64,000 nt of DNA, from positions 95,277 through 159,276 of the forward strand of contig NZ_JAMOLN010000001.1 in assembly GCF_024448165.1 (NCBI RefSeq). The letters run 5' to 3'. Under the pieces are notes generated by a model. It ran no database searches. It saw only the letters and a program-made list of their open reading frames with translations, and was not told the origin of the DNA. Both the position numbers and the translations under genes were made by a program. Shown here piece by piece: positions 8,556 to 25,895 of this stretch (positions are counted from its first letter, which is position 1; the number at the start of each line of letters is the position of its first letter). This stretch comes from Streptomyces longispororuber. Its GTDB lineage: Bacteria > Actinomycetota > Actinomycetes > Streptomycetales > Streptomycetaceae.

Positions 8556-8586
8556 CAATCCGTGTCCCGCCGACGCTCCGGATTGC
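8556..8586 (+). promoter_or_regulatory. SigK-type promoter upstream of chaplin gene
   Basis: CAATCC at 8556-8561, an 18-base spacer, then GGATTGC at 8580-8586. The same two boxes with 17-18 base spacing occur upstream of the intact sigK and five other genes here. The predicted start site near 8593 leaves a leader of about 65 bases to the chaplin ATG. Confidence 0.6.
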
Positions 8587-8657
8587 GAGTGAGGAGCAAG
8601 TAGTTCCTTGCCTCCGCCCGTTTGGGTCGGGGCTGTATGAGCAGTGAGGGAAAGTTC

Positions 8658-8990
8658 ATGTCTCGTGTACTGAAGAGTGCGGCGATCGCGGTCACCGTCG
8701 GCGGTGCGGTCCTGGCCGGTGCGGGTGCCGCGTCCGCGGACGCCGGCGCTCAGGGTGCCGCTTGGGGCTCGCCGGGTGTCCTGTCGGGCAACGTGGTCCA
8801 GGTCCCGGTGCACGTCCCGGTCAACGCCTGCGGCAACACCGTCAACGTCATCGGCCTGCTCAACCCGGCCTTCGGCAACAACTGCTCCAACGGTTCGGAC
8901 GGCTGGGGCGGTCACGCCTGGGATGAGGGCCACATGGGCGGCCAGCACGGCTCGATGAACCACGACGGCGACATGGGCACGTGGAAGTAG
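8658..8990 (+). CDS. short chaplin-like secreted protein with His/Gly/Met-rich tail
   Basis: 110 residues. Residues 1-27 are a signal peptide (MSRVLKSAAIAVTVGGAVLA ... ASA). The mature part is one chaplin domain: GSPGVLSGNVVQVPVHVPVN, then ACGNTVNVIGLLNPAFGNNC, with the two conserved cysteines. Short chaplins normally end soon after the second Cys. This one adds about 30 residues rich in Gly, His, Met and Asp (GGHAWDEGHMGGQHGSMNHD), a possible metal-binding or hydrated tail. A GAGG ribosome site precedes ATG 8658. Chaplins assemble into amyloid-like surfactant films on aerial hyphae and spores. Its promoter matches the SigK-type boxes in this window, not an obvious BldN site. Confidence 0.9.
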   Translation: MSRVLKSAAIAVTVGGAVLAGAGAASADAGAQGAAWGSPGVLSGNVVQVPVHVPVNACGNTVNVIGLLNPAFGNNCSNGSDGWGGHAWDEGHMGGQHGSMNHDGDMGTWK

Positions 8991-9040
8991 GCAACCACCC
9001 CACGCCAATCCGGGGCATCACCTGATGCCGCACGGTGAAA

Positions 9041-9078
9041 GGGCTCTGGCGCCGTCCGATCGGACGGCGCCAGAGCCC
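9041..9078 (+). terminator. terminator after chaplin gene
   Basis: A perfect 19-base inverted repeat, GGGCTCTGGCGCCGTCCGA followed directly by its complement, 50 bases after the chaplin stop. It has the long GC stem common in Streptomyces terminators, without a T-run. Confidence 0.85.
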
Positions 9079-9092
9079 CTCGTGGCTCCGAC

Positions 9093-9239
9093 GACATGGC
9101 GTCCCCGTCAACGGCCTAGTTTTGCTCACGTCGGCCTTTCGGTAACAGCTACGCCGACGGTTCGGGCGGTTGGGGCGTCGGCCAGCGGGGCGACGGCGGC
9201 GGTATGAGCCACAGCGATCAGGGCGGTATGCCGAAATAG
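9093..9239 (+). pseudogene. degenerate second chaplin copy (C-terminal relic)
   Basis: Plus-strand DNA reads VPVN near 9100, then after indels PFGNSYADGSGGWGVGQRGD and GGGMSHSDQGGMPK ending at TAG 9239. It aligns with the intact chaplin's AFGNNC...GWGG...MGGQHGSMNH...GTWK tail. The second cysteine is replaced by Tyr, the CGN core is deleted and no signal peptide remains. It is a decayed tandem duplicate directly behind the functional gene and its terminator. Confidence 0.6.
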
Positions 9240-9402
9240 CCCTCACCTCCTGGAGCAGCGCATTTGGTGACGCCCGTAGACGAGGATGCGCAAGGCTCTC
9301 TGACGTCCGGGGCACAGACAGGCCGCACCGGGCTGCCATCGGCACCCGTCCGGCGCGCGTGTAGGAGAAGTTTTCAAGAGTTGTGGATTGGGTCGTCGAC
9401 AT

Positions 9403-9960: not shown

Positions 9961-10027
9961 GTCGCGATCTTCACCATGGGCTGGCGGGTCTGCCACCGGT
10001 TTTCCGGCCGGCGGCCGTCGGTAGTGT

Positions 10028-11812: not shown

Positions 11813-12460
11813 TCAGCTCTTCGGCATGAGGACCGTGTCGATGATGTAGACGTTGGCGTTGGCGGTCTTGACGTTGCCGCAGACGACGTTGGCGCTGTCG
11901 TTGACCTTGTAGTTCTCGCCGGAGCCGGAGGTGGTGAGCCTCGACTTCTCCAGGGTGTCGAAGGAGCCGTTCTCCAGGTCCTTGGGCGCCAGCTTCTGGC
12001 CCACGACGTGGTAGGTCAGGATCTTGGTGAGCTGGGCCTTGTCGTTCAGGACCTTGTCCAGGTCGGCCTTCGGGATCTTGGCAAAGGCGTCGTTGGTGGG
12101 CGCGAAGACCGTGATGTCCTTGGCGTTGTTCAGGGTGTCGACGAGGCCGGCCTTCTTCACCGCGGTGACCAGGGTGGACAGGGCCGGGTTGTTGGAGGCG
12201 GCGGTGGCGACGGGGTCCTTGGCCATGCCGTCGAAGGAGCCCGCGCCGTCCTTGGGCACGGAGGAGCAGGCCGGGCCGAACGGCTCGTCGGCGGTGCTCA
12301 TGTCGTCGGAGGGGCTGGCCATGCCCGACCCCTTCGACGCGGATGAGGCGCTGTCGGAGGCCTTGTCCTTGGAGTCGCTGTCGGAGCACGCGGTCAGGGC
12401 CAGCGGCAGCATGGCCGCGGCGGCGACGACGACGGCGGCACGACGAAGGCGAGTCTGCAT
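11813..12460 (-). CDS. fasciclin-domain lipoprotein (MPT83-like)
   Basis: 215 residues. A lipoprotein signal ends at the lipobox LALTAC (Cys near residue 25), followed by a low-complexity Ser/Asp/Lys linker (SDSDSKDKASDSASSASKGS). The FAS1 domain spans about residues 65-215: DPVATAASNNPALSTLVTAV, ITVFAPTNDAFAKIP, TKILTYHVVGQKLAPKDL and the final VYIIDTVLMPKS. The domain is nearly identical to that of the secreted fasciclin at 13881, so the two are recent paralogues. The M. tuberculosis pair MPT83 (lipoprotein) and MPT70 (secreted) has the same arrangement and is SigK-controlled. A SigK-type promoter lies at 12511-12540. Confidence 0.95.
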   Translation of the reverse strand: MQTRLRRAAVVVAAAAMLPLALTACSDSDSKDKASDSASSASKGSGMASPSDDMSTADEPFGPACSSVPKDGAGSFDGMAKDPVATAASNNPALSTLVTAVKKAGLVDTLNNAKDITVFAPTNDAFAKIPKADLDKVLNDKAQLTKILTYHVVGQKLAPKDLENGSFDTLEKSRLTTSGSGENYKVNDSANVVCGNVKTANANVYIIDTVLMPKS

Positions 12461-12510
12461 GAAAATCCCTCAACGATCGGAACTGTGGAGGCCATCCGCC
12501 TCCATCGCGG

Positions 12511-12540
12511 GGAATCCGGTGCGGTCGCCGCCGCGGATTG
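12511..12540 (-). promoter_or_regulatory. SigK-type promoter of fasciclin lipoprotein
   Basis: On the minus strand CAATCC (12540-12535), 17 bases, then GGATTCC (12517-12511). The predicted start near 12504 gives a leader of about 45 bases. Confidence 0.65.
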
Positions 12541-12595: not shown

Positions 12596-13096
12596 TCAGC
12601 CTGGGTGCCGGGAGCGCCAGTACGGGTTGTCGTGAGGGAGCCCTCCGCTGACTCTTCCGTACATGCCGCCGGTCATCAGCAGCAGTCCGGCGGCGAAGCT
12701 GAACAACACGTTCTGCATCCGGAAGTTGAGAAAGTTGAGGCGGCTGTCCAGCGCGAACAGGAACGCGAAGCCGGCCAGCAGGAAGCCGATGCCGAGCACC
12801 ATGTTCACGGTGGACGCGGTGTTCCCGCCACGGACGGCGGCCGCCAGAAGGACGCCGCCGACCAGCAAGGACAGGACGCTCAGGGCCCCGTTGGTGTTGA
12901 GGCCGAGGACGGTGTTGGCGCCGGTGTCGAAGAAGCCGATACGGCGGATGAGGCCCAGGACGCCGAACGCCAGCAGGAACACGCCCATGATCCCGGCGCT
13001 GAACCGGTAGACCCGGCTCAGGCGGTGGTCGACCGGCAGGTGATCGTCGAGTGTCACCCGCGGTCGGGCGTGGGAGCCGGCGTGCAGTGTGGTCAC
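12596..13096 (-). CDS. DUF4383 membrane protein
   Basis: 166 residues starting MTTLHAGSHARPRVTLDDHL. Four hydrophobic segments are visible: IMGVFLLAFGVLGLI, LSVLSLLVGGVLLAAAV, MVLGIGFLLAGFAFLFAL and VLFSFAAGLLLMTGGMYG. It ends with the conserved DNPYWRSRHPG. DUF4383 proteins are integral membrane proteins of unknown function common in actinobacteria. It lies 42 bases downstream of the SH3 gene on the same strand and is probably co-transcribed from the 13680-13710 promoter. A second DUF4383 gene is at 32551. Confidence 0.9.
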   Translation of the reverse strand: MTTLHAGSHARPRVTLDDHLPVDHRLSRVYRFSAGIMGVFLLAFGVLGLIRRIGFFDTGANTVLGLNTNGALSVLSLLVGGVLLAAAVRGGNTASTVNMVLGIGFLLAGFAFLFALDSRLNFLNFRMQNVLFSFAAGLLLMTGGMYGRVSGGLPHDNPYWRSRHPG

Positions 13097-13138: not shown

Positions 13139-13588
13139 TCAGCAGCTGGGCGGCTGCCAGCCGGTGGGCCGGACATGGGCGGCGCTGATCCAGCCGTGGG
13201 CGTCGTTGTCGAAGTACCAGACCGTTCCGTCCGCGTGGCCGCCGTCGGTCTGGCAGAACAGCCGGACGTGGGAGCCCGCGGGCAGCGTGGCGGTGGCCCT
13301 CGCGTGCACGGTCGGCGCGTCACGGACGTAGACCTCGGTCCGTGCCGTCACGACGGCCGGAGCGGCATGGTCGTCATGCCCGTTCCCGGACCAGGTCCAG
13401 GTCTCGGCCGCGGACTCCGTCCAGGACCCCGACCAGGTCAAGGTCTCAGACCAGGAGCCGCCGGGCCCCCAGTCGTCCGGATCCCAGCCGGAGGCGTGGG
13501 CGCTGCCGCCGGCGGCGAGGCCGGTCAGGGCGAAGGCCCCTGTCAGGACCGCGGCGCAGGCCCGGGTGAGGATCTTCGAGTGGTTCAT
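13139..13588 (-). CDS. secreted SH3-like domain protein
   Basis: 149 residues. Residues 1-32 form a signal peptide (ACAAVLTGAFALTGLAAGGS ... AHA). A Trp/Ser/Thr-rich linker follows (WSETLTWSGSWTESAAETWT). Residues 80-149 are a bacterial SH3-type domain (TEVYVRDAPTVHARATATLP ... WYFDNDAHGWISAAHVRP) with two cysteines that could form a disulfide. Such domains often bind peptidoglycan. It is the first gene of a likely two-gene transcript with DUF4383 and is divergent from the secreted fasciclin, with a SigK-type promoter facing each way. Confidence 0.88.
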   Translation of the reverse strand: MNHSKILTRACAAVLTGAFALTGLAAGGSAHASGWDPDDWGPGGSWSETLTWSGSWTESAAETWTWSGNGHDDHAAPAVVTARTEVYVRDAPTVHARATATLPAGSHVRLFCQTDGGHADGTVWYFDNDAHGWISAAHVRPTGWQPPSC

Positions 13589-13679: not shown

Positions 13680-13710
13680 GTAATCCGGCACCAGTATCCG
13701 CCGCGGATTG
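13680..13710 (-). promoter_or_regulatory. SigK-type promoter of SH3/DUF4383 genes
   Basis: On the minus strand CAATCC (13710-13705), 18 bases, GGATTAC (13686-13680). It sits back to back with the plus-strand promoter at 13740. Confidence 0.65.
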
Positions 13711-13739: not shown

Positions 13740-13769
13740 CAATCCGGATCCCGTGTGGCGTCGAATTAC
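13740..13769 (+). promoter_or_regulatory. SigK-type promoter of secreted fasciclin gene
   Basis: CAATCC (13740-13745), 17 bases, GAATTAC (13763-13769). The leader to ATG 13881 is about 105 bases. Confidence 0.65.
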
Positions 13770-13880: not shown

Positions 13881-14462
13881 ATGACTGCTCATCGCGTAAG
13901 CACCCGGATCCTGGTCGGAACGGCGGCGCTCGCGCTCCCGTTCTCGCTGGCGGCGCTGGCCCCGGCCGCCTCGGCCGACGACATGACGGGCCCGTTCGGC
14001 CCCGCCTGCTCCTCCGTCCCCAAGGACGGCGCGGGTTCCTTCGACGGCATGGCCAAGGACCCGGTGGCCACGGCAGCCTCGCACAACCCCGACCTGTCGA
14101 CGCTGGTCACGGCGGTGAAGAAGGCCGGTCTCGTCGACACCCTGAACAACGCCAAGGACATCACGGTCTTCGCGCCGACGAACGAGGCGTTCGCGAAGAT
14201 CCCGAAGGCGGACCTGGACAAGGTCCTCAACGACAAGGCGCAGCTGACCAAGATCCTCACGTACCACGTGGTGGGTGAGAAGGTCACGCAGGACAAGCTG
14301 GCCGACGGCAGCTTCAAGACGCTGGAGGGCAGCAAGCTGACGACCTCGGGCTCCGGCGAGAAGTTCAAGGTCAACGACAGCGCGAACATTGTCTGTGGCG
14401 ATGTGCAGACCTCGAACGCCACTGTCCACATCATCGACAGTGTCCTGATGCCCAAGAGCTGA
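13881..14462 (+). CDS. secreted fasciclin-domain protein (MPT70-like)
   Basis: 193 residues with an AAAGGAG ribosome site before ATG 13881. Residues 1-33 are a signal peptide (LVGTAALALPFSLAALAPAA ... ASA) with no lipobox. The remainder is one FAS1 domain: DPVATAASHNPDLSTLVTAV, ITVFAPTNEAFAKIP, TKILTYHVVGEKVTQDKL and VHIIDSVLMPKS. It is the non-lipidated partner of the lipoprotein at 11813, mirroring the MPT70/MPT83 pair. FAS1 domains mediate cell-surface adhesion. A strong bidirectional terminator separates it from the convergent anti-sigma gene. Confidence 0.95.
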   Translation: MTAHRVSTRILVGTAALALPFSLAALAPAASADDMTGPFGPACSSVPKDGAGSFDGMAKDPVATAASHNPDLSTLVTAVKKAGLVDTLNNAKDITVFAPTNEAFAKIPKADLDKVLNDKAQLTKILTYHVVGEKVTQDKLADGSFKTLEGSKLTTSGSGEKFKVNDSANIVCGDVQTSNATVHIIDSVLMPKS

Positions 14463-14535: not shown

Positions 14536-14560
14536 CATGGCCCGGGAAGGTCCGAATCGA

Positions 14561-15166
14561 TCAGGCGGGCAGCTGCAGCAGGGCCACCGGCTGGGTGGTG
14601 GGCTGCTTGGAGCCGCCGTCCGGTTCGAGGGTGACACCCACGCCGGACGCCTTGCCGACGGCGCCCGCCATCAGGACGCTCTGGTTCGTCCGGGAGGGGT
14701 TCATCAGGCTCGAGGTCACCTTGGCGTCCGGAGCGGAGAGCACCTCGGTGATCTGGTCGGCCTGCCGCTGCGCGACCTGGGCCTGTTGACGGGCTTCGTC
14801 GGCCTGCTGGTGCTGCCACAGCGTCGTGCCGCCGAGCGCGGCAGCAGCGGCGACACAGGCGGCGAGCGCCCAACGCATGGCGTGCCCGCGACGTGCTGTG
14901 CGCGACAAGGCCGTCACCCCGGAATGAGGACGCTCCTGCTGCCGCACACCAGCGATCTGCTCCAATACCTGAGCCTTGAGGCGAGGCGGTGGCGGCATTG
15001 TGGCCGCGAGCGCCAGCCGTCCGGCGGTCGCCGTCAGCTCACATACTTCCTGGGCGCAGTCCTCGCACTTGGCGAGGTGTTGTTCGAACGCGACGCGCTC
15101 GTCTTCTTCCAGGGCATCCAGTGCGTAGGCGCCCGTCAGCGTGTGCAGGTCCGCCTGGGCGGTCAT
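14561..15166 (-). CDS. anti-sigma-K factor RskA-like, internally deleted (copy 1)
   Basis: 201 residues. The cytoplasmic zinc anti-sigma domain is intact: TGAYALDALEEDERVAFEQH with HLAKCEDCAQEVCELTATA. A membrane segment follows (RWALAACVAAAAALGGTTLW). Compared with the 251-residue copy at 19569, the external RskA domain has lost about 50 residues between APDA and LM, removing the part equivalent to SKSRDRAVFVVSRMARPPRG and KVYQLWFDDGG. The C-terminal GVGVTLEPDGGS is kept. It can probably still bind a sigma factor but may not sense or be proteolysed normally. Its ATG overlaps the stop of the adjacent sigK-like gene. Confidence 0.88.
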   Translation of the reverse strand: MTAQADLHTLTGAYALDALEEDERVAFEQHLAKCEDCAQEVCELTATAGRLALAATMPPPPRLKAQVLEQIAGVRQQERPHSGVTALSRTARRGHAMRWALAACVAAAAALGGTTLWQHQQADEARQQAQVAQRQADQITEVLSAPDAKVTSSLMNPSRTNQSVLMAGAVGKASGVGVTLEPDGGSKQPTTQPVALLQLPA

Positions 15167-15755
15167 GCGGTCACCCCCAAGCAGTCGCGTAGCCGGATGA
15201 GCCCGTCACGCAGTCGCGTCTTGATCGTGCCCAACGGCGTGGACAGCGCCTCCGCGACCTCCTTGTAGGTAAGGCCCTGGTAGTACGCCAGCGTCACCGA
15301 CTGACGCTGGATCTCACTGAGAGAACGCAGGCAGCGGCGCAGCTGTTTCCGCTCCAACTGCCCCTCCACCTGTTCACTCACCTCGTCGAACTCCGGGACC
15401 TGATCGAGCAGCGCGACCCGGTGGTCGCGCGCGGCAGCCGCCTCCACCGAACGGATCCGGTCCACGGTGCGCCGGTGCGCCGGTGCGCCAAGGTGAGCAC
15501 CCAGTTCAGGACAGTGCCCTGATCCGCGCGGTAGCGCGCCGCGGTACGCCAGACCTCGACGAGCACTTCCTGAGCGACTTCCTCGGACTGGGCATGATCG
15601 CGCAGCAGCTTGCACACGACGCCGAACACGGGCGCGGCCACCGCCTCATAGATGACGGAGAACGCCTCGCGATCCCCCTGCGCGACGAGGGCAAGCTGAT
15701 CCTGCAGATCAAGTCCACGGGCTGGACCGGGCCCGACCGGCCTGGGGTGTGTCAT
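15163..15755 (-). pseudogene. ECF sigma factor SigK-like, frameshifted (copy 1)
   Basis: From ATG 15755 the first frame reads MTHPRPVGPGPARGLDLQDQ, then the sigma-2 region SEEVAQEVLVEVWRTAARYR and VLNWVLTLAHRR. There it leaves the frame, and the sequence resumes in another frame as TVDRIRSVEAAAARDH. The sigma-4 part LRSLSEIQRQSVTLAYYQGL and VAEALSTPLGTIKTRLRDGL is complete to 15163. The cause is a third tandem copy of GGTGCGCC at 15466-15489; removing 8 bases restores 195 codons, the same count as the intact copy. I see no good SigK-type promoter upstream. Confidence 0.88.
15466..15489. repeat. three tandem copies of an 8-bp unit inside sigK-like copy 1
   Basis: GGTGCGCC occurs three times in a row (15466-15473, 15474-15481, 15482-15489) at the junction of the sigma-2 and sigma-4 coding parts. 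Two copies would keep the gene in frame. Confidence 0.9.
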
Positions 15756-15868: not shown

Positions 15869-17542
15869 TCAGTCGACGGTGACGACGACGGAGTGCCATC
15901 CGGAGGCGCCGTCGGGGATGGTCGGAGTGCGCTTCTCGGTCTGGGTCTCGCCCGTCCGGTCCGTGGCCCGCACGGTCAGAGTGTGGCCGCCCTTGGTGGC
16001 GTCCCAGGGGTAGGACCACTGCCGCCAGGTGTCCCGGGTGTCCTCAGCGGCGAGCCGTGCTTCTTCCCAGGGCCCGTCGTCGACCCGGATCTCGACCTTG
16101 TCGATGCCGCGGTGCTGCGCCCAGGCGACACCGGCGACCATGACCGTGCCGGCCTTCGGGCGGGCGAACGGCTTGGGCGCGTCGATGCGCGACTCGGTCT
16201 TGATCGGCGCCTTCTGCGCCCAGTCCCGTTTGACCCAGTACGAGTCGTAGGCGTCGAACGTGGTCAGCTCGATGTCCTGGATCCACTTGCAGGCCGACAC
16301 GTAGCCGTACAGTCCCGGGACGACCATGCGTACCGGGAAGCCGTGCTCGAACGGCAGCGGCTGGCCGTTCATGCCGAGGGCGAGCATCGCGTCGCGGCCG
16401 TCCATCACGTCCTCGACAGGGCTGCCGATGGTCATCCCGTCCACCGACCGCGCCACCAGTTGGTCGGCGGGCCCGCCCTTCGACGGCGGCTTCACCCCGC
16501 ACTGCTTGAGCAGGTCGGTCAAGCGGACGCCGATCCAGCGAGCGTTGCCGACGTAGGGGCCGCCGACCTCGTTGGAGACGCAGGTCAGGGTGATGTTGCG
16601 TTCGATGAGCGGCATCTTCAGCAGGTCGTCGAAGGAGACGGTCAGTTCGCGCTCGACGCCCTTGCCGTGGATACGCAGCTTCCAGCTGGTGGCGTCGACC
16701 TTGGGGACAACCAGGGCGGTGTCGACGCGGTAGAAGTCACCGTTGGGCGTCACAAACGGGCTGATGCCCTTGATCCGCAGGGCGGCCCCGCGCGGCACCG
16801 GGGCCGCCTTCGACGCCGGGGCGGGAATCACCACGTCCTTCCGGGAGGCGACGGCGTTCTGGCCCTGCGAGCCGTTCAGTGCCCGGCCCGCGAGCCCAGC
16901 ACCGGTGGAGGCCGCTGCCGCCGCGGTCGCGGCCAGGATGAACCCGCGCCGGTCCCACCCCGACCCACCTGAGCCGTCGGCGTCATGTACGGGGGCTGTG
17001 TCATCCAGTGCCGGCGCCGCGCCGTCATCCGGGACCGAGCCTCGAGAGGCAGAGGTCTGGCCGGTGACGTCCCCGGCGCGTCCAAGGCGCCCGATCAAGT
17101 AGTAGAGCAGGCAGGCGCCGACGATGGCGCCGACGGCGGAGGGCAGCGCGTCCGTGACGCTGGTGGAATCGGGCCTGCTGGTCGCGGCCAGGGCACCGAC
17201 GACGCCGAACGCGAGGACACCCAGTGAGCCGATCAGTCGCCATCGCGCGGCGAGCGCCCCGAGCACCAGGGCGAGCACGGTCAGCACGGCCAGAATGCCC
17301 AGTTGCAGCACCAGCTTGTCGTTCGTGCCGAACTGCCGGATCGCCCAGTCCTTGACCGCCGGAGGGGTGCGGTCGATCGCCGCCCCGCCCACCGCGATGA
17401 CCGGACCAGATTCGGGCCGCACCGCCGCGGAGACCAGCTCGGCGACCGCGATCGCCGCGTATCCGGCGAGCAGGCCGCTCAGCGCGCCCAAAGAGAAGCG
17501 TTTGATGCCGCGCAGCGGCGTGGGAGTCGAGTCGTCGTCCAT
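15869..17542 (-). CDS. membrane-anchored molybdopterin oxidoreductase (sulfite-oxidase/YedY fold)
   Basis: 557 residues from ATG 17542. The first 180 residues hold about four membrane segments (SLGALSGLLAGYAAIAVAEL, LGILAVLTVLALVLGALAAR, IGSLGVLAFGVVGALAA, VGAIVGACLLYYLIG). A charged linker and a twin-arginine-like WDRRGFILAATAAAAASTGA follow. The molybdopterin domain has the cofactor-ligand cysteine in ERNITLTCVSNEVGGPYVGN and ends in a Mo-co dimerisation domain (AGVAWAQHRGIDKVEIRVDD). The catalytic domain should be outside the membrane. A SigK-type promoter ends 6 bases before the ATG, implying a leaderless mRNA. Longer starts upstream would put the promoter inside the gene. Confidence 0.92.
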   Translation of the reverse strand: MDDDSTPTPLRGIKRFSLGALSGLLAGYAAIAVAELVSAAVRPESGPVIAVGGAAIDRTPPAVKDWAIRQFGTNDKLVLQLGILAVLTVLALVLGALAARWRLIGSLGVLAFGVVGALAATSRPDSTSVTDALPSAVGAIVGACLLYYLIGRLGRAGDVTGQTSASRGSVPDDGAAPALDDTAPVHDADGSGGSGWDRRGFILAATAAAAASTGAGLAGRALNGSQGQNAVASRKDVVIPAPASKAAPVPRGAALRIKGISPFVTPNGDFYRVDTALVVPKVDATSWKLRIHGKGVERELTVSFDDLLKMPLIERNITLTCVSNEVGGPYVGNARWIGVRLTDLLKQCGVKPPSKGGPADQLVARSVDGMTIGSPVEDVMDGRDAMLALGMNGQPLPFEHGFPVRMVVPGLYGYVSACKWIQDIELTTFDAYDSYWVKRDWAQKAPIKTESRIDAPKPFARPKAGTVMVAGVAWAQHRGIDKVEIRVDDGPWEEARLAAEDTRDTWRQWSYPWDATKGGHTLTVRATDRTGETQTEKRTPTIPDGASGWHSVVVTVD

Positions 17543-17547: not shown

Positions 17548-17577
17548 GGAATCCGTCCTTGCGCAGCGCTTGGATTG
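17548..17577 (-). promoter_or_regulatory. SigK-type promoter of molybdopterin oxidoreductase
   Basis: On the minus strand CAATCC (17577-17572), 17 bases, GGATTCC (17554-17548). The expected start site falls at or next to the A of the ATG at 17542. Confidence 0.6.
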
Positions 17578-17854
17578 GTCGTTCACGCCATCGAGGGATG
17601 AAGGGGCATGCGGCAGCAGTAGCAGGCAAAGCAGCGCGGTCCCTGGTGACAGCGCCGCCGGGCTGCCGGTATTCCACGGTCTGGAAGGCAGCGTGCGCGG
17701 CGAAAGAGTGACGGCTTGTGCGAAGACCAAGCCGCGGGGCACAGGCCGCCGGATTACCGGAGGGCACACGGACCCACACGACACCGCCCGATCAGGTCAG
17801 GCAATGACCGCCGCAGGAAAGCGGTGATACCCGCCGCTTCAGCGGCCAGGTCGA

Positions 17855-18165: not shown

Positions 18166-18177
18166 GGGTGAGGCGGC

Positions 18178-18926: not shown

Positions 18927-18956
18927 CAATCCATGGGCGCTCGGGGTCCGGATTAC
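18927..18956 (+). promoter_or_regulatory. SigK-type promoter of the intact sigK-rskA operon (autoregulation)
   Basis: CAATCC (18927-18932), 17 bases, GGATTAC (18950-18956), about 25 bases before the probable start site and GTG 18988. It matches the boxes upstream of the putative target genes, as expected for an autoregulated ECF sigma factor. Confidence 0.7.
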
Positions 18957-18987: not shown

Positions 18988-19572
18988 GTGAAAGAAGCCG
19001 TACACATCGGCAGACATCCATCCGCCGAGCCGGATCTGGAGGAGCTCGTGAGCCGTGTCGCCCTGGGCGACGAGGACGCGTTCGCCTCCGTGTACGACAG
19101 AGTGGCGGGCCCGGTCCTCGGCACGGTGCGCGCGGTCCTGCGTGACCTGGCGCAGTCCGAGGAGGTGGCGCAGGAGACCCTCGTGGAGGTGTGGCGGACG
19201 GCACCGCGCTACCGCTCCGACCGGGGAACGGCGATCAACTGGATCCTCACCCTGGCGCACCGGCGCGCGATCGACCGGGTGCGCTCGGCCGAGGCTGCCG
19301 CGGCCCGCGACCACAAGGCCGCTCTCCTCGACCGTACGCCCGACTTCGACGAGGTGACCGAGCAGGTGGAGGCCCGTCTGGAGCGGGAGCAGGTGCGGCG
19401 CTGTCTGCGCACGCTGACCGAGATCCAGCGCCAGGCCGTCACGCTCGCCTACTACCGCGGGCTGACCTACCGTCAGGTGGCGGAATCCCTGGCTCTGCCG
19501 CTGGGCACGGTCAAGACGCGGCTGCGCGACGGTCTCATCCGGCTGCGCGACTGCCTGGGGGTGACCGCGTGA
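18988..19572 (+). CDS. sigK: ECF sigma factor SigK
   Basis: 194 residues from GTG 18988 with GGAGGGG five to eleven bases upstream. Sigma region 2 is LGDEDAFASVYDRVAGPVLG, SEEVAQETLVEVWRTAPRYR and INWILTLAHRRAIDRVRS. Region 4 is LRTLTEIQRQAVTLAYYRGL, TYRQVAESLALPLGTVKTRL. Length is normal for a group-IV sigma factor. Its stop overlaps the GTG of the anti-sigma gene. Synteny with fasciclins and the FAD oxidoreductase to DUF1295 operon identifies it with M. tuberculosis SigK. It should direct RNA polymerase to the CAATCC...GGATTAC promoters found here once RskA is inactivated by proteolysis. Confidence 0.93.
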   Translation: MKEAVHIGRHPSAEPDLEELVSRVALGDEDAFASVYDRVAGPVLGTVRAVLRDLAQSEEVAQETLVEVWRTAPRYRSDRGTAINWILTLAHRRAIDRVRSAEAAAARDHKAALLDRTPDFDEVTEQVEARLEREQVRRCLRTLTEIQRQAVTLAYYRGLTYRQVAESLALPLGTVKTRLRDGLIRLRDCLGVTA

Positions 19573-20324
19573 CCACCGCCGACCTGCACACCCTGACGGG
19601 CGCCTACGCACTGCACGCTTTGCCGGACGAGGAACGCTCCGCCTTCGAGCGGCACCTGGCCGACTGCGACGCGTGCGCCCAGGAAACGGCCGAACTCACC
19701 GCGACCGCTGCCCGCCTGGGCCTGGCCGCCACCGTCGTTCCACGGGCCGCGCTGCGCGACCAGGTGCTGCGCCGGATCACGACGATCCGTCAGGAGCCGC
19801 CCCACGAGGCCGTCCTGCCGCGGGCCGCTCGCACGGCGGCGGCCCGCGGGCGGCTGATGTCACGCTGGGCGCTCGCCGCCTGCCTCGCGGCGGCCGCGGC
19901 ACTCGGCGGGACCACGGTGTGGCAGCACCAGCGGGCCGACGACGCCGCCGAGCAGGCCCGGCGGGCGGAACAGGGGGCCGACGAGATCGCCGCCGTGCTC
20001 GCCGCGCCGGACGCCAGGACCGGTCCGGCGAAGCTGGCCGACGGCGCCTCCGGCACCGTCGTCGTCTCCAAGAGCCGGGACAGGGCCGTGTTCGTCGTCT
20101 CCCGCATGGCACGTCCGCCGCGCGGAAAGGTCTACCAACTGTGGTTCGACGACGGCGGAACCATGCGGGACGCGGGACTCATGGATGCCGGGCGCAGTGA
20201 CCAGGCCGTGCTGCTGAGCGGCGACGTCGACGGGGCCTCGGGCATGGGCGTGACCGTGGAGCCCGCCGGCGGCTCCGACCACCCGACCTCGGAGCCGGTG
20301 GCGCTGATGCGTCTTCCCGCCTGA
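19569..20324 (+). CDS. rskA: anti-sigma-K factor RskA
   Basis: 251 residues from GTG 19569, overlapping the sigK stop (GTGA). Residues 1-75 are the zinc anti-sigma domain (TGAYALHALPDEERSAFERH, HLADCDACAQETAEL with the H-x3-C-x2-C motif). Residues about 97-116 form the single membrane helix (RWALAACLAAAAALGGTTVW). The rest is the external RskA domain, with VVSKSRDRAVFVVSRMARPP, GKVYQLWFDDGG and GMGVTVEPAGGSDHPTSEPV. In mycobacteria RskA sequesters SigK and is released by regulated intramembrane proteolysis. This copy is complete, unlike copy 1. Confidence 0.94.
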   Translation: MTTADLHTLTGAYALHALPDEERSAFERHLADCDACAQETAELTATAARLGLAATVVPRAALRDQVLRRITTIRQEPPHEAVLPRAARTAAARGRLMSRWALAACLAAAAALGGTTVWQHQRADDAAEQARRAEQGADEIAAVLAAPDARTGPAKLADGASGTVVVSKSRDRAVFVVSRMARPPRGKVYQLWFDDGGTMRDAGLMDAGRSDQAVLLSGDVDGASGMGVTVEPAGGSDHPTSEPVALMRLPA

Positions 20325-20367: not shown

Positions 20368-20390
20368 CCCCGCCCTCGTCAACGGCGGGG
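20368..20390. terminator. possible terminator between rskA and the convergent DUF1295 gene
   Basis: CCCCGCC and GGCGGGG with a 9-base loop lie between the convergent genes, overlapping the last codons of DUF1295. Confidence 0.35.
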
Positions 20391-21179
20391 CGGCAGCGGA
20401 AAGAAGCCGCTGGTACGGGCCGCGTACTCGGCGTAGCCGGGACGCCGGGCCATGTGCCGCTCCAGCAGACGCTTACCGCTGCCCCGCGTCAGCAGCAGGC
20501 TCATCAGCAGCGGCGAGACGGCACCCGCGGCTGCCGCGGCGGGCGCGTCGCAGGCGATCAGGAACAGGCCCCACCACACACAGAAGTCCCCGAAGTAGTT
20601 GGGGTGCCTGGTGTAGCGCCACAGCCCTCGGTCCATGATCCGGCCCTTGTTCGCCGGGTCCTTCTTGAACCGGGCGAGCTGGTCGTCCCCCACCGCCTCG
20701 AAGAACACGCCGACCGCCCACAGGGCCGTACCCGCCCAGGCGACGCCGGTCATCGGGCCAGGCACGTACTGGGCCGCCTGGACGGGCAGCGACACGATCC
20801 ACACCAACGCTCCTTGGAGCACGTAGACCATGCGCAGGGCGTACACGTTCCGGTTCCCGGGGGCCCTGGCGAGCAGCTTCTCGTAGCGCGGGTCCTCGCC
20901 GTGCCCGCGTCCACGCCGGGCGATGTGCCCGGCGAGGCGCAGCCCCCACACGGCCGTCAGGACGGTCACCAGGGTGCGCCGTCCCGGGTCGCCGGCACCG
21001 GTGGACGCCACGAAGCTCACCACGACGACCACGGTGAACCCGAGCCCCCACGCGACGTCGACGATGCGGTGCACGCCCTTGCGCACGGCCACGGCGAAGG
21101 TGACGAGCATGACGCCGAACGCGGCGCCCGCCGACCAGGCCAGACCGACGGCGAAGTCACCCCAGGGGAAGCCGCTCAC
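20379..21179 (-). CDS. DUF1295 membrane protein (steroid 5-alpha-reductase-like)
   Basis: 266 residues from GTG 21179, overlapping the previous stop (GTGA). It has six or so membrane segments (GVMLVTFAVAVRKGVHRIVD, VALGFTVVVVVSFVAS type stretches, MTGVAWAGTALWAVGVFFEA). The conserved C-terminal signature is DRGLWRYTRHPNYFGDFCVW, with GYAEYAARTSGFFPLPPR at the end. The homologue in the M. tuberculosis sigK cluster is Rv0446c. These resemble NADPH-dependent lipid reductases. It is the last gene of the operon that makes modified fatty acyl chains; its exact role is unproven. Confidence 0.9.
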   Translation of the reverse strand: MSGFPWGDFAVGLAWSAGAAFGVMLVTFAVAVRKGVHRIVDVAWGLGFTVVVVVSFVASTGAGDPGRRTLVTVLTAVWGLRLAGHIARRGRGHGEDPRYEKLLARAPGNRNVYALRMVYVLQGALVWIVSLPVQAAQYVPGPMTGVAWAGTALWAVGVFFEAVGDDQLARFKKDPANKGRIMDRGLWRYTRHPNYFGDFCVWWGLFLIACDAPAAAAAGAVSPLLMSLLLTRGSGKRLLERHMARRPGYAEYAARTSGFFPLPPRR

Positions 21180-22486
21180 AGCCGGTCCAGCCCGATGTAC
21201 CAGTCCTTCGGCGTCGCCCCCGCACCGCTGTGCCCGGCGGCCGACGGGTGCACGGCGAGGATCTGGTCGACGCCCATGCGCCCCTCCTCGAACGCGAGGG
21301 CTCCACCGACCAGGTACAGCCGCCACACACGTGCCGTCTCCTCGCCGACCAGACGCACGACGTCGGCCCAGCGTTCCTCCAGCGTGCGGTGCCAGGCGGC
21401 GACCGTACGCACGTAGTGCTCACGCATCGACTCCACCGACCTGACCTCCAGTCCCGCCCCTTCCAGCAGACCGACGGTCGCGCCCACCGGCCGCATGTGC
21501 ATGTCGGGGGCGATGTACGCCTCGATGAAGGCGCCGCCGCCCGGAGCCGTCGCCCCGCGGGACATCTGCTGGACCAGGACGCGTCCCATGGGCCGGACCA
21601 TGCGGTGCAGCGTGCGGGCGAACGCCGGATACTCGCTGTCGCCCACGTGCTCACCCATCTCGACGGTGGCCACCGCGTCGTAGCCGCCGCCCGCGATGTC
21701 CCGGTAGTCCTGGCACACCACCTCGACGCGGTCGCTCAGGCCCCGCTCGCGCACCTGCTCGCGCACGTGGGCCGCCTGTTCCCGGGCCAGGGTCACCGCG
21801 GTGACCTGTACCTTGTGGCGTTCGGCCGCGTGCAGCGTGAGCGAGCCCCAGCCGCAGCCGATGTCGAGCAGCCGGGCTCCGGGCACCAGAGCGAGCTTGC
21901 GGCAGATCAGTTCCAGCTTGGCGCGCTGCGCGTCGGCTGCGGTGAACTCCGCTTCGTCACTGGCCCAGTAGCCGCACGAGTAGGCCATCGTCTCGTCGAG
22001 GAGCAGCCGGTAGAAGGCGTTGGACAGGTCGTAGTGGTGGCTGATGGCGGCCCGGTCGCGGGACTTGGTGTGCAGCGCTCCGCGCAGCCGGGCCTGGGAG
22101 GCCGGTGGGGGCACCGGCGGGCCCGCGACGCCCAGCCGGGCGGCGGTGCCGGCCGCGCGGGCCCGGTCGGCGAGGGTGAGGCGGGGCGGGTGGAGGCTGC
22201 GCTCCCGGGCCGCCGACCACATGGCCCGCAGCCCGGCGGCGAGATCGCCCTCCACGTCGAGCTCCGCGGTGACGTAGGCCTGGGCGAGACCCAACTCGCC
22301 GGGCTGCCACAGCAGTCGGCGCAGGGCGCGGCGGGACCGCACGACGACCACGGGGCCGTCGGGTGGCCCCGCCTCGGCGCCGTCCCAGGTGCGCAGGCGG
22401 ACCGGGAGCGGTCCGCCGAGGGCGGTCTCGGCCAGTGCGGCGAGGCGGTGCGCGGCGCCGGCCCGGGCGGGACGGGGGGTGGTCAT
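21176..22486 (-). CDS. cyclopropane-fatty-acid-synthase-like methyltransferase (UfaA1-type), first copy
   Basis: 436 residues from ATG 22486. The N-terminal third is the acyl-chain-binding part. AISHHYDLSNAFYRLLLDET and MAYSCGYWASDEAEFTAADA lead into the SAM-binding motif LLDIGCGWGSLTLHAAERHK. ATVEMGEHVGDSEYPAF, YIAPDMHMRPVGATVGLLEG and AWHRTLEERWADVVRLVGEE complete the family signature. It uses SAM to methylate or cyclopropanate unsaturated acyl chains of phospholipids. Both ends overlap neighbours by 4 bases, so the operon is tightly coupled. The M. tuberculosis equivalent is ufaA1 (Rv0447c). Here the gene is present twice in tandem. Confidence 0.93.
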   Translation of the reverse strand: MTTPRPARAGAAHRLAALAETALGGPLPVRLRTWDGAEAGPPDGPVVVVRSRRALRRLLWQPGELGLAQAYVTAELDVEGDLAAGLRAMWSAARERSLHPPRLTLADRARAAGTAARLGVAGPPVPPPASQARLRGALHTKSRDRAAISHHYDLSNAFYRLLLDETMAYSCGYWASDEAEFTAADAQRAKLELICRKLALVPGARLLDIGCGWGSLTLHAAERHKVQVTAVTLAREQAAHVREQVRERGLSDRVEVVCQDYRDIAGGGYDAVATVEMGEHVGDSEYPAFARTLHRMVRPMGRVLVQQMSRGATAPGGGAFIEAYIAPDMHMRPVGATVGLLEGAGLEVRSVESMREHYVRTVAAWHRTLEERWADVVRLVGEETARVWRLYLVGGALAFEEGRMGVDQILAVHPSAAGHSGAGATPKDWYIGLDRL

Positions 22487-23766
22487 CGGACGGTGTCCTC
22501 CTTGGTGAGCAGGTACTGCTGGACATCGAGGTATCCGGAGCGGAACCCCGCTTCGGAGTAGGCGAGATAGAACGTCCACATGCGGCGGAAGGTCTCGTCG
22601 AAGCCCAGTACGCCGACCTCGTCCGCGCGCTCGGTGAACCGTTCGCGCCACAGGCGCAGCGTCTCGGCGTAGTGGGCGCCGTAGCCGTCGCGTCGGGCGA
22701 CGGTGAGGCGGGTGTGATCGCGTACGGTCTCGGCGACCGCGTCGACGGAGGGCAGCAGTCCGCCGGGGAAGATGTACTTCTGGATCCAGGTGTAGGTGGA
22801 ACGGCTGGCCAGCATGCGGTCGTGCGGCATGGTGATGGCCTGCAGCACGGCCCGGCCGCCCGGCGCCAGGCGCTCGTCGAGCGTCCGGAAGTACACGGGC
22901 CAGAACTCGGCGCCGACGGCCTCGATCATCTCGACGCTGACCACGGCGTCGTAGGTACCGCGGGCTTCGCGGTAGTCGCACAGCTCCACCTCGACCCGGC
23001 CGGACAGTCCGGCCGCCGCGATGCGCTCGCGCGCGAGGTCGCGCTGTTCGCGGGAGAGGGTGAGCGAGGTGACCTGGGCGCCGCGGGCGGCGGCACGCAG
23101 GGCGAGTTCGCCCCACCCGGTGCCGATCTCCAGGACCCGGCTGCCCTCCCCCACGCCGGCGAGATCGAGAAGACGGTCGATCTTGCGGCGCTGGGCGTCG
23201 GCGAGCAGACCCCACTGGGCGGGAAGGATCCGGAAGACGGCCGAGGAGTAGCTGAGTGTCTCGTCCAGGAAGAGTGCGAACAGGTCGTTGGACAGGTCGT
23301 AGTGGTGGCTGATGTTGGCCCGGGAGCCGACCGGGGTGTTGCGCCGTGCCGACGGCTGCCGCAGCGCCCACAGCCCGCGCAGCCGCTGCAGGGGTGCGGG
23401 GACCAGCTCCGGGGCGTGCGCGGCGAGCACGGTGAGGGCGGCCACCAGGTCGGGGGCGTCCCACTCCCCCGCCATGTACGACTCGCCGAACCCGATCAGT
23501 CCGTGCCTGCCGATGCGGCCGTGGAACGCGGTCGGGCGGTGGATGTCCAGGGCCGGCCCGCCCTGGCCCAGCACGGCTTTGTCGGCGAAGCGCACGCGCA
23601 GTGGCAACCGCCGCAGGGCATGCCGGACGACGGCGGCGGCTATGGCGGTACGGGGCCGGGACGCGGCCGGCGGGGCCGCGACGTCGGGCCAGCGGACCGG
23701 GTCCGCGGGGGCAGGTGCTGGGGCGGCCGGGCGCGCGGTCGCGCAGTGGGCCCCGCCGGTTGTCAT
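22483..23766 (-). CDS. cyclopropane-fatty-acid-synthase-like methyltransferase, second copy
   Basis: 427 residues from ATG 23766. NISHHYDLSNDLFALFLDET and LSYSSAVFRILPAQWGLLAD precede the SAM motif VLEIGTGWGELALRAAARGA. SVEMIEAVGAEFWPVYFRTL, YIFPGGLLPSVDAVAETVRD and ERFTERADEVGVLGFDETFR follow. It is only moderately similar to the adjacent copy, so the pair is old and probably specialised (for example methyl transfer versus cyclopropanation, or successive methylation and reduction of the same chain). Start and stop both overlap neighbours by ATGA. Confidence 0.93.
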   Translation of the reverse strand: MTTGGAHCATARPAAPAPAPADPVRWPDVAAPPAASRPRTAIAAAVVRHALRRLPLRVRFADKAVLGQGGPALDIHRPTAFHGRIGRHGLIGFGESYMAGEWDAPDLVAALTVLAAHAPELVPAPLQRLRGLWALRQPSARRNTPVGSRANISHHYDLSNDLFALFLDETLSYSSAVFRILPAQWGLLADAQRRKIDRLLDLAGVGEGSRVLEIGTGWGELALRAAARGAQVTSLTLSREQRDLARERIAAAGLSGRVEVELCDYREARGTYDAVVSVEMIEAVGAEFWPVYFRTLDERLAPGGRAVLQAITMPHDRMLASRSTYTWIQKYIFPGGLLPSVDAVAETVRDHTRLTVARRDGYGAHYAETLRLWRERFTERADEVGVLGFDETFRRMWTFYLAYSEAGFRSGYLDVQQYLLTKEDTVR

Positions 23767-24505
23767 CGGGCGTTCTCCGGGGTGCTGTGATCGGGGTGGG
23801 CGGGGCGGGGCTGGACGGGCAGTCCCCGCAGGTACAGCCGGATGCCGTGCAGGCGGATGGCCGCGGACACGGCGAGCGTCGACCAGGGCCGGCGCAGGGC
23901 CATGGACAGCAGGGTGCGTGTGCGCAGGTGCCGTCTGGTGCCGCGCACGGTCGCGGTGAAGGGGCGGCCGTCGGCGCGCTCCAGGTGCATGGTGAAGTCG
24001 ACCCGGTCGCCGGGGGCGGGCAGCCGCATGCGGTAGCGGCCGTCCACGGGGAAGAACGGCGAGACGTAGAACTCCTTCGCGGTGACCGCCGTTCCCGAGT
24101 CGTCGGGTCGCAGCAGGTAGCAGTGGCGTTCGCCGTAGGTGTTGTGGACCTCGGCGACGACACAGCGCGGGGTGCCGTCGGGGTCGTGGCACCGTAGAGG
24201 GTGAGCGGGTTGAACACGTACCCGAGGACGCGTGCGTGGGTGAGCATCAGCACCGGGCCACCCTGGAGGTCGACTCCCTGCCCGGTCAGGAAGGCGTCGA
24301 GGCCGGCGCGCAGGGACGGCCCTCGGCCACTGAAGTGGTCGCGCGGGTCGAAGCGTGCCAACGGCCGCAGGAGCACGGGCAGTCGGGGAGGGTGGTCGGG
24401 GTCGATGAGCCACATGTAGGTTCGGTGGCGCAGCGCGTACCGCTGCGGGGCGGTGCGTATGTGCACGACCTCGACGCCGTACAGGGCCGACGCGCCGCTC
24501 ACCAT
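23763..24505 (-). pseudogene. DUF1365 protein with a single-base deletion
   Basis: From ATG 24505 the frame reads MVSGASALYGVEVVHIRTAP, YMWLIDPDHPPRLPVLLRPL and ARVLGYVFNPLTLY. The next residues should be WCHDPDG, but TAC is followed by GGTGCCAC instead of TGGTGCCAC. One T is missing at about 24193/24194 and the frame is lost. The remainder (CVVAEVHNTYGERHCYLLRP, EFYVSPFFPVDGRYRMRLPA) continues in the neighbouring frame to 23763. DUF1365 proteins accompany this operon in mycobacteria (Rv0448c). All other genes of the operon are intact, so a sequencing error is as likely as a true mutation. Confidence 0.85.
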
Positions 24506-25821
24506 GTCACCCCGAGGGCCGCGGCGGCCTCCACCCCGGAACGGCAGCCGTCCTCGTGGAAACCCCAGCCGTGATAGGCCCCGGCGAACGCGGTGACACG
24601 GGTGCGCAGTTCGGGCAGCCGCTGTTGGGCGGCCACCGACTCCGGTGTGTAGACCGGGTGTTCGTAGACCATGCGGGCCAGGACCCGGGCCGCGTCGACG
24701 CGGTCCTCGCCGCCGAGCGTGACCACGTACGTCTCGGGCGCGTCCAGGCGCTGGAGCCGGTTCATGTCGTAACTGACCCGAACCTGGCCGGTGTCCGCCG
24801 CGCAGGACGGCATCAGGTAGTTCCAGGAGGCCCGGGCGCCCCGGGCCCGCGGCAGCAGACCGGTGTCTGTGTGCAGGAGCGTGGTGTTGCGCGAGTACCG
24901 GAACGCGCCGAGGACCTCCTTCTCCCGCGGGGTGGCGTCGGCCAGCAGTCTCAGCGCCTGGTCCGGGTGGGTGGCGACGACCACGGAGTCGTACGAGCGG
25001 GGGGTGCCGTCGGCGGTGGTGAGGGTGACGCCGTCCGGGTGCCGTTGCACGGCGCGGACCGGCGTCGCCAGGTGCACCGCGTGCAGGCGCCGGGCCACCT
25101 GGTCGACGTAGCTGCGGGAGCCGCCGGTGACGGTGCGCCAGGTCGGCGAGCCGGCGACCGAGAGCATCCCGTGATGGTGCAGGAACCGGAACAGGTAGAT
25201 GGCCGGGTAGCGCTGCGCGGTGGCGGCGTCGCAGGACCACACGGCCGACACGAGTGGGGTCATGAAGTGCGTGCGGAAGTAGGAGGAGAAGCCCTCGCGG
25301 TCCAGGAACTCTCCCAGGGTGAGGGCCGTTCCGGCCTCTTGGGCGAGCAGGCGCCGCGCGGCCCGGTGGAAGACGGGCACCTGGGCGAGCAGCCGCAGGT
25401 AGCGCGGGTGAAAGGCGCTGCGGGGGCGGGCGAGGAGTCCGGCGGGGCCGCGGGCACCGGCGTACTCCAGCCCGCATCCCTCGCACCGCACGGACATGCT
25501 CATCTCCGACTCCTGTGTGGCGACGCCGAGCTCGGAGAACAGCCGCAGGAGGTTCGGATAGGTGCGGCGGTTGTGCACGATGAACCCGGAGTCGACGCGG
25601 TGTGCGGCTCCGTCGGGCGAGGTCACGTCGTGGGTGTGGGCGTGCCCTCCGAGCCGCTCGTCGGCCTCGTACAGCGTGACGTGATGGTCACGGGCGAGCA
25701 CATGTGCGGCGGTGAGCCCGGCCACTCCGCTGCCGATCACGGCGGTACGCCGCCGGCCTTCGTCCGCGCGGGCCACCGGCTGCCCGGCCCTCCGCACGTC
25801 GCCCCTCGGCGTTATCGGCAT
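24499..25821 (-). CDS. FAD-dependent oxidoreductase (amine-oxidase-like)
   Basis: 440 residues. After a short basic leader the FAD-binding fingerprint is TAVIGSGVAGLTAAHVLARD with EADERLGGHAHTHDV. VDSGFIVHNRRTYPNLLRLF, RTHFMTPLVSAVWSCDAATA and PLARPRGAR-type motifs typical of the Rv0449c family follow, with DSVVVATHPDQALRLLADAT and YHGWGFHEDGCRSGVEAAAA near the C-terminus. It is the first gene of the five-gene operon and has a purine-rich GAGAGGAGAGGAG leader. A SigK-type promoter lies at 25866-25895. The substrate is unknown; neighbours suggest oxidation or desaturation of acyl lipids. Confidence 0.93.
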   Translation of the reverse strand: MPITPRGDVRRAGQPVARADEGRRRTAVIGSGVAGLTAAHVLARDHHVTLYEADERLGGHAHTHDVTSPDGAAHRVDSGFIVHNRRTYPNLLRLFSELGVATQESEMSMSVRCEGCGLEYAGARGPAGLLARPRSAFHPRYLRLLAQVPVFHRAARRLLAQEAGTALTLGEFLDREGFSSYFRTHFMTPLVSAVWSCDAATAQRYPAIYLFRFLHHHGMLSVAGSPTWRTVTGGSRSYVDQVARRLHAVHLATPVRAVQRHPDGVTLTTADGTPRSYDSVVVATHPDQALRLLADATPREKEVLGAFRYSRNTTLLHTDTGLLPRARGARASWNYLMPSCAADTGQVRVSYDMNRLQRLDAPETYVVTLGGEDRVDAARVLARMVYEHPVYTPESVAAQQRLPELRTRVTAFAGAYHGWGFHEDGCRSGVEAAAALGVTW

Positions 25822-25865
25822 CGCCTCTCCTCTCCTCTCGCCCCGCCACGAACGCGGTCCCAGGA

Positions 25866-25895
25866 GTTATCCGGAGCCGCCAGGCAGGCGGATTG
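25866..25895 (-). promoter_or_regulatory. SigK-type promoter of the lipid-modification operon
   Basis: On the minus strand CAATCC (25895-25890), 17 bases, GGATAAC (25872-25866). The start would be near 25859, giving a 38-base leader to ATG 25821. Confidence 0.65.

Follow-up and report, generated by a model that had tools for sequence, protein, structure and literature searches.

The 64,000-nucleotide (nt) stretch of Streptomyces longispororuber DNA analysed here (positions 95,277 to 159,276 of contig NZ_JAMOLN010000001.1; hereafter, the window) contains a gene cluster in which a two-part promoter-like element, or box, recurs around sigK, the gene of an extracytoplasmic function (ECF) sigma factor. 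Judged from sequence, these boxes are predicted promoters that SigK very probably reads, and through them sigK with its anti-sigma gene rskA, a chaplin gene, two fasciclin genes, an SH3-like/DUF4383 pair, a molybdopterin oxidoreductase gene (moly) and a lipid-modifying operon would be activated in concert. An earlier note on this DNA had proposed such a SigK regulon from seven sites, and our analysis supports it: the boxes are scarce in the genome as a whole, have nearly constant spacing, are oriented towards gene starts and are kept upstream of the same genes in relatives.

A motif search of the window found all seven sites where they had been placed, each upstream of a gene start as claimed, with predicted leaders of 1-107 nt. 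The cluster holds one more box, at 17728 on the forward strand, which the earlier note lacked, and the total is thus eight:

8556..8586, forward strand: chaplin box, CAATCC-N18-GGATTGC, matrix score 22.3, predicted transcription start (+1) 8591 (G)
12511..12540, reverse strand: box of the fasciclin lipoprotein gene (fasL), CAATCC-N17-GGATTCC, score 40.1, predicted +1 12506 (G)
13680..13710, reverse strand: box of the SH3-like/DUF4383 pair, CAATCC-N18-GGATTAC, score 24.2, predicted +1 13675 (G)
13740..13769, forward strand: secreted fasciclin box, CAATCC-N17-GAATTAC, score 23.2, predicted +1 13774 (G)
17548..17577, reverse strand: box of the moly-sigK2-rskA2 unit, CAATCC-N17-GGATTCC, score 19.5, predicted +1 17543 (C)
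17728..17757, forward strand: eighth box, an orphan, score 20.4, predicted +1 17762 (G)
18927..18956, forward strand: sigK-rskA box, CAATCC-N17-GGATTAC, score 34.1, predicted +1 18961 (G)
25866..25895, reverse strand: box of the operon headed by a flavin adenine dinucleotide (FAD)-dependent oxidoreductase gene, CAATCC-N17-GGATAAC, score 30.0, predicted +1 25861 (G)

The scores come from a weight matrix of 110 distinct boxes with a 17-base spacer that lie upstream of sigK, the FAD gene, moly or fasL, with this genome excluded. Its source loci were 80 named records, nearly all from Streptomyces, and 39 further genome stretches, with a few repeats and one stretch from this genome. When the whole window was ranked, the eight positions scored 19.5-40.1 and the next 6.1, and the top score in 40 second-order Markov shuffles of the window was 14.1; this matrix, built without the genome, recovers exactly the eight window boxes. 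The plain pattern CAATCC-N16..19-GGAT matched seven times in the window against 0.26 expected, a number reached in none of 100 shuffles; one of these matches, at 8558 on the reverse strand, is the 8556 site read in reverse, and the 13740 site (GAATTAC) is not covered.

In the host genome (10.5 megabases (Mb), 442 contigs) the strict pattern CAATCC-N15..19-GGATWMC, outside of which the 8556 and 13740 boxes fall, matched seven times, five in the window and two in a second SigK cluster on contig C6, and its reversed control never. A longer pattern with one mismatch allowed gave 10 matches (five in the window, three in the C6 cluster, and contigs C199 and C422), and a looser one gave 11, including single matches on C110 and C403 that we read as chance. 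Across the genus, CCAATCC-N16-CGGATTMC was found 90 times in 34 of 246 Streptomyces genomes (five times in this genome), and its reversed control gave no match. This search returned 30 loci, and for the 29 other than the window's own, tblastn placed 23 upstream of a cluster gene; two more were placed by eye (L224 before an FAD gene, L233 before a truncated moly), and four have no assignment. Two of the five FAD assignments are at distances of 261 and 329 nt, and these could instead pertain to a moly remnant. This genus-wide count is unbiased, whereas loci fetched by SigK similarity are enriched in clusters.

The genes behind the boxes, apart from the sigma and anti-sigma genes listed further below, are the following:

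8658..8990, forward strand: chaplin with a ChpA-C domain (PF03777, 101.1 bits), a His/Met-rich tail and, by eye, a signal-like N-terminus
11813..12460, reverse strand: fasciclin lipoprotein, fasL (PF02469, 119.8 bits)
12596..13096, reverse strand: DUF4383 membrane protein (PF14325, 46.2 bits)
13139..13588, reverse strand: secreted SH3-like protein (no Pfam match; name from the earlier note)
13881..14462, forward strand: secreted fasciclin protein (PF02469, 130.5 bits)
15869..17542, reverse strand: moly, membrane-fused molybdopterin oxidoreductase, with a predicted leaderless mRNA
20379..21179, reverse strand: DUF1295 membrane protein (PF06966, 243 bits)
21180..22486, reverse strand: Cfa2, cyclopropane-synthase-type methyltransferase (family models)
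22486..23766, reverse strand: Cfa1, cyclopropane-synthase-type methyltransferase (family models)
23763..24505, reverse strand: DUF1365 gene with the UfaO-type domain, which this assembly divides between two frames
24499..25821, reverse strand: FAD-dependent amine oxidase-like protein, probably UfaD-like (domain search)

The boxed FAD operon therefore spans 25821-20379 and comprises the FAD-oxidoreductase, DUF1365, two Cfa and DUF1295 genes; both fasciclin genes have a box each, and the DUF4383 gene has none of its own. In 119 SigK-fetched loci taken together with the window and L019, the locus of the C6 cluster (repeats kept), 45 of 46 perfect matches lie upstream of cluster genes. At a score of at least 12, 2.2 Mb of locus sequence contained 251 matrix matches, of which 198 precede a cluster gene, and a column-permuted matrix gave 1. 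This contrast is partly circular because the 251 include the 110 training boxes (identical 80-base contexts were counted once). Counted per gene at the same threshold in 118 loci with distinct sigK DNA, reduced from 121 sources, boxes precede sigK in 94 of 118 loci, the FAD gene in 40 of 50, moly in 37 of 47 and fasL in 20 of 57. Operon-internal genes serve as a built-in control, and there the counts are 0/108 for rskA, 0/51 for Cfa1, 0/56 for DUF1295 and 1/51 for DUF1365. Chance clustering, or the spread of a mobile promoter-like repeat, is extremely improbable: a Mutator-family transposase gene lies in pieces between chaplin and fasL (10031-11252, reverse strand) and a search behind the 17728 box found no intact gene, which could recall a mobile repeat, but reversed, scrambled and permuted controls are all near zero and the flanks of different genes' boxes are unlike. 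A by-eye reading of transposase debris behind the 17728 box was dropped, as pieces of 17757-18629 gave no Pfam match.

The sigma factor and its relatives in this genome are encoded as follows:

18988..19572, forward strand: sigK, ECF sigma factor (NCBIfam NF007228 SigK, 281 bits, cut-off 226)
19569..20324, forward strand: rskA, anti-sigma factor with zf-HC2 and RskA_C domains (RskA_C 112.8 bits, RskA_N 32.4 bits)
15163..15755, reverse strand: second sigK (sigK2), frame interrupted where an 8-base unit is repeated three times in tandem (about 15474-15497)
14561..15166, reverse strand: second rskA (rskA2), frame intact (RskA_C 35 bits, RskA_N 29.2 bits)
L019 2107-10186: second SigK cluster, on contig C6, with fasL, moly, the FAD-DUF1365-Cfa-DUF1295 operon and sigK-rskA
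L153 9890-12184: SigK locus of contig C162, a further SigK type beside a gene for a DUF4331 secreted protein with a CCGAAT-form box

The identification of the sigma factor as SigK is borne out, since it passes the NCBIfam SigK cut-off and its best solved relative is M. tuberculosis SigK (4nqw). Both redox cysteines are kept: C139 and C189 align with 4nqw residues 150 and 200, which correspond to M. tuberculosis SigK 133 and 183 through an inferred chain offset of 17. The start of rskA overlaps the end of sigK, placing an RskA-type anti-sigma factor directly adjacent. The C6 cluster, which the earlier note had missed, is compact and carries four boxes, the one before its sigK with two mismatches; the sigK-rskA frames are open both there and in the window (18988-20324), and its DUF1365 copy is one open frame. 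Also missed was that the moly box heads the sigK2-rskA2 pair, and rskA2, with this SigK-type box ahead of it, would supply a further anti-sigma factor. The sigK genes of L150 and L151 (genomes G003 and G005) are broken in the same region as sigK2, by different changes. We had considered a slippage hotspot common to these three copies and dropped it: the breaks differ, and draft-assembly error is possible.

The element proved longer than the two boxes described before. CAATCC and the GGATTAC-like box stand, but the consensus of 122 boxes reads GACCAATCCGC, a loose middle and CGG-N2-CCGGATTAC-N4-G. The final G, five bases after the end of the box and 29 bases past the last base of CAATCC, is present in 90% of these boxes and in seven of the eight window boxes (the moly box has C), and it is the predicted transcription start. 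The moly genes agree with this placement: all 30 distinct boxed moly genes have an ATG or GTG, in frame with moly, that begins 5 or 6 bases after the box, a position that holds a start codon behind 0 of 65 sigK boxes, 2 of 31 FAD boxes and 0 of 11 fasL boxes. In the window, the moly ATG begins one base after the predicted +1 (17543). Because the start codon is on or beside the predicted +1, the moly mRNA is predicted to be leaderless.

Since CAATCC...GGATT(G) is a near-inverted repeat, the boxes might instead be the operator of a dimeric repressor or activator and no promoter at all. The half-sites are indeed nearly reverse complements, and the 8556 site also matches when read in reverse. However, the motif is asymmetric: all 111 boxes of other genomes have C as the first base of box 1, and at the mirror position of box 2 they have A (84) or C (27), never G (these boxes were picked by closeness to GGATTAC, which favours A and treats C and G alike), although the window's 8556 box does have G there. 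A fixed C opposite A or C argues against a symmetric operator, and the gene-directed orientation, the extra CGG before box 2, the conserved G after it and the moly start codon at the predicted +1 in 30 of 30 genes fit a promoter. We therefore regard an operator as very unlikely. For a SigK promoter, the course of events would be that RskA holds SigK at the membrane until a signal releases it, whereupon SigK would bind the -35 element (GACCAATCCG) and the -10 element (CCGGATTAC) and begin the transcript on the G that follows the -10 by five bases. To judge by its own box, sigK would also feed back on itself, and the outcome, of which we are less sure, may be envelope and lipid defence by way of furan-type fatty acids, redox repair and a protein coat.

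The second box of relatives takes one of two forms, CCGGAT(TAC) or CCGAAT, in the same register, CMATCC-N15-CCGRAT. Among 111 distinct SigK proteins, 53 go with the CCGGAT form, 30 with CCGAAT and two with a mixture, and no box was found for 26; the last two groups were left out of the residue comparison. On a tree of the remaining 83 proteins (quick tree method), the -10 form changes twice, compared with 24.6 times in shuffles, and as judged from this tree it is co-inherited with the SigK clade. Residue N84 is present in 53 of 53 proteins of the CCGGAT form and in 12 of 30 of the CCGAAT form. The idea that covariation of the N84 type marks a -10 contact was given up, as the tree yields one well-supported independent contrast. 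The C162 SigK stands beside a CCGAAT box, which means that two SigK types with different -10 forms coexist in this genome. Together with the predicted leaderless moly mRNA, two -10 forms (CCGGATTAC and CCGAAT) in one sigma family offer handles on promoter specificity.

Boxed chaplins are present in five other genomes as well; the matrix detected the box in four of these, and in the fifth it was seen by eye. Two chaplins of G367, 88% identical to each other, and the chaplin of G571 are boxed, with scores of 15.5, 17.2 and 16.1; one of the G367 copies (L203) clusters with rskA, fasL and a sigK cut by the contig end, and the G571 chaplin is beside a boxed moly (L174). L092 and L107 have boxed chaplins beside moly, with two mismatches, and the chaplin of L148 has a CCGAAT-form box with one -35 mismatch, seen by eye and not matrix-scored. 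In 30 loci, each the best chaplin match of one genome, drawn from 295 genus genomes, a box scoring at least 9 before the chaplin occurs only in the window, G367 and G571. The window gene shares a genuine chaplin domain with the developmental chaplins of Streptomyces, but its place is inside a SigK cluster, and a SigK-type box precedes it. Control of a chaplin by a stress sigma factor would link the hydrophobic coat, otherwise studied as development, to defence against envelope oxidation. Just 3' of the chaplin gene, at 9120-9238 on the forward strand, there is by eye an apparent degenerate second copy of its C-terminal part.

Several observations weigh against the assignment of all of these boxes to the window's SigK: (i) The genome encodes three further SigK-like proteins, on C6, C162 and C391 (79%, 62% and 41% identical to the window SigK), so that the window SigK need not read the boxes. 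(ii) No box scoring at least 12 precedes sigK in 24 of the 118 loci, several of which carry the CCGAAT form, scored low by the matrix. (iii) Only those 20 of 57 fasL genes have their own box, and fasL is often behind moly instead. (iv) The SH3 box (1/1 locus) and the secreted-fasciclin box are unique to the window. (v) The chaplin boxes of other genomes (15.5-17.2) are weaker than the window's 22.3. (vi) False matrix matches exist: among chaplin loci, L199 has a match of 18.7 that is not before its chaplin, and we read this and weaker similar ones in L183 and L192 (14.4 in the latter) as false. (vii) Covariation of SigK residues with the -10 form amounts to that one well-supported independent contrast. 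(viii) This genome's own photolyase gene (C399), of the kind discussed below for other SigK loci, is not among its motif matches.

The first of these points leads to a rival: the promoters may well be of the ECF type, but their main reader could be a different sigma factor of this genome, be it the C6 SigK, the C162 SigK or some other ECF factor. The C6 cluster has the same box form as the window, which makes cross-reading by its SigK possible. Against this, the window's own sigK is boxed, the -10 form tracks the SigK clade, and the C162 SigK is beside a gene with a CCGAAT-form box (L153) and not CCGGATTAC. We consider another main reader unlikely.

The three genes that had been singled out as additions to the mycobacterial set fared differently: moly is a core streptomycete member, by the 37 boxed loci of 47, and the chaplin recurs, but the SH3 gene is boxed only here. 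Conserved membership of SH3 and DUF4383 is accordingly not supported, and a DUF4383 relative in L057 is without a box. A second DUF4383 copy lies in the window at 32659-33108 on the reverse strand and is 53% identical to the cluster copy. For moly, identification as a sulfite dehydrogenase or MsrP is not supported, as the curated cut-offs were missed (score/cut-off: SorA 123.9/600, SoxC 117.9/420, SorT 90.7/570, MsrP 46.2/207); its predicted domain is related to that of these enzymes, and its substrate is left unassigned by family models.

In relatives, boxes also precede a second ECF sigma factor gene (9 of 13 loci), an alpha/beta hydrolase gene (6 of 21), DUF4331 genes (4 of 8), genes of CHRD-like proteins (2 of 2; one was scanned, just below the Pfam cut-off), a gene of a DipZ-like protein (1 of 1) and photolyase genes (3 of 28). 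The boxed second ECF genes raise the possibility of a sigma cascade. Second ECF genes with a SigK-type box are found in L055, L058, L059, L060, L069, L073, L081, L089, L134 and L207, several of them divergent from moly.

What the regulon may do is suggested by the company it keeps. Of the 118 SigK loci, 28 include a photolyase gene in the sequence fetched. In 13 loci (L084, L104, L110-L117, L121, L142 and L151) it is, by match coordinates, directly 3' on the same strand, behind sigK-rskA in 12 and behind sigK in one (L114), and in three other loci it is beside the FAD operon, in the opposite direction and with its own box. Pfam confirmed the photolyase identity in five of these loci and in a sixth. 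One such photolyase is held by 33 of 41 genus genomes, and none hold more; we estimate the chance of meeting it in a 20 kb stretch at about 1/500, and since the loci are related we attach no formal probability. The position directly behind sigK or sigK-rskA in 13 loci suggests light-driven oxidation as the signal. That the regulon protects the envelope and membrane lipids against light-driven or singlet-oxygen-type oxidation seems to us quite possible, if short of probable.

A similar assembly of genes is known from the RpoE-ChrR (ECF11) system of Rhodobacter sphaeroides. As described in PMC7380195, DUF1365 is the UfaO domain, and UfaO, UfaD and UfaM make furan fatty acids in that species. PMC7074977 places those genes in the RpoE-ChrR regulon along with the fasciclin RSP_1409, the photolyase PhrA and a second sigma factor, and states that singlet oxygen induces 13 of its 15 genes; ChrR turnover is said, in PMC6852236, to require the furan-fatty-acid synthesis genes. 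In the window, the domains of a putative UfaD-like FAD enzyme, of DUF1365 and of a putative UfaM-like methyltransferase occur in one operon. Of the gene kinds in that regulon, candidate furan-fatty-acid genes and fasciclin genes are in the window by domain, and photolyase is found only in relatives; all four kinds (furan-fatty-acid genes, fasciclin, photolyase and second sigma factor) are boxed in one relative or another. There are also differences: the window sigma factor scores as SigK and its anti-sigma factor as RskA, the window's own cluster is without a photolyase or a second ECF gene of that kind, and the regulon table of PMC7074977 is without a chaplin and a molybdo-oxidoreductase. Among the Pfam and NCBIfam matches listed for the window anti-sigma factor there is none to ChrR, and RskA_C, RskA_N and an anti-sigma model do match.

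More tentatively still, SigK-RskA could be the actinobacterial counterpart of RpoE-ChrR. Light-driven membrane oxidation would free SigK; furan fatty acids, fasciclins, moly, photolyase and sometimes a chaplin coat would be made; and products of the furan-fatty-acid genes would feed back on RskA, much as those genes reportedly act on ChrR. If true, the signal to which SigK responds, long unknown, would be identified, also for the mycobacterial protein. The sensed signal is called obscure in PMC9861118, which also reports that two M. kansasii fasciclins with putative SigK sites are raised by light; in PMC8965627, RskA is reported to be lowered by ultraviolet light in a Nesterenkonia strain. Thiol-redox or metal stress is a competing signal. 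Both SigK cysteines are kept, and PMC7509140 reports release under reducing conditions; one relative (L145) has a boxed DipZ-type redox protein, and the chaplin tail is His/Met-rich. On the other side stand the photolyase genes in SigK loci, 13 of them directly behind sigK or sigK-rskA, and FAD, DUF1365 and Cfa-type genes that recall the R. sphaeroides furan-fatty-acid pathway (PMC7380195), controlled there together with a fasciclin and a photolyase by the singlet-oxygen sigma factor (PMC7074977). We judge a thiol-redox or metal signal rather unlikely next to the light-driven oxidation suggested by the photolyase positions. In harmless Streptomyces, a compact boxed regulon is a safe place to ask what SigK senses, and since photolyase and furan-fatty-acid-type genes are found together there, one specific signal can be put to the test.

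The mycobacterial SigK regulon consists of the mpt70/mpt83 fasciclins, dipZ and the genes from Rv0449c to rskA, a set that we take to include the FAD-oxidoreductase, DUF1365, Cfa and DUF1295 genes. The window shares with it a SigK-family sigma factor, an RskA-type anti-sigma factor, both redox cysteines, fasciclins, those FAD-oxidoreductase, DUF1365, Cfa and DUF1295 genes and a box on the sigma operon, and the window's relatives share its -35/-10 register, CMATCC-N15-CCGRAT. The mycobacterial -10 is CCGAAT, which is seen here in other actinobacteria, whereas the window -10 is CCGGATTAC. Beyond the mycobacterial set, the window has moly, the chaplin, SH3/DUF4383, a second Cfa gene and paralogous clusters in one genome. 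According to PMC7509140, mycobacterial SigK is autoregulated through the Rv0449c promoter; in contrast, the window sigK has its own box. Among the open-access titles and abstracts listed by our searches, none ties SigK to Streptomyces fasciclins or SigK/RskA to chaplins; one listed paper, on M. kansasii, contains the terms together, but its passages make no such connection. The kind of system is known; what sets this one apart is the gene content (chaplin, moly, the photolyase link), a promoter of sigK itself, the existence of two -10 forms and the duplication of the cluster.

The window cluster itself bears marks of rearrangement. Behind the FAD promoter there is a weak, sub-cut-off match to a DDE transposase at 25987-26964, and beyond the FAD operon a fasL fragment at 26370-26560 on the forward strand (55% match, extrapolated start 26370). 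Because of the transposase remains, this fasL fragment, the frame-broken sigK2 and DUF1365 genes and the orphan box, the window cluster gives the impression of a paralogue of the compact C6 type that has been rearranged, is in partial decay and carries additional surface genes.

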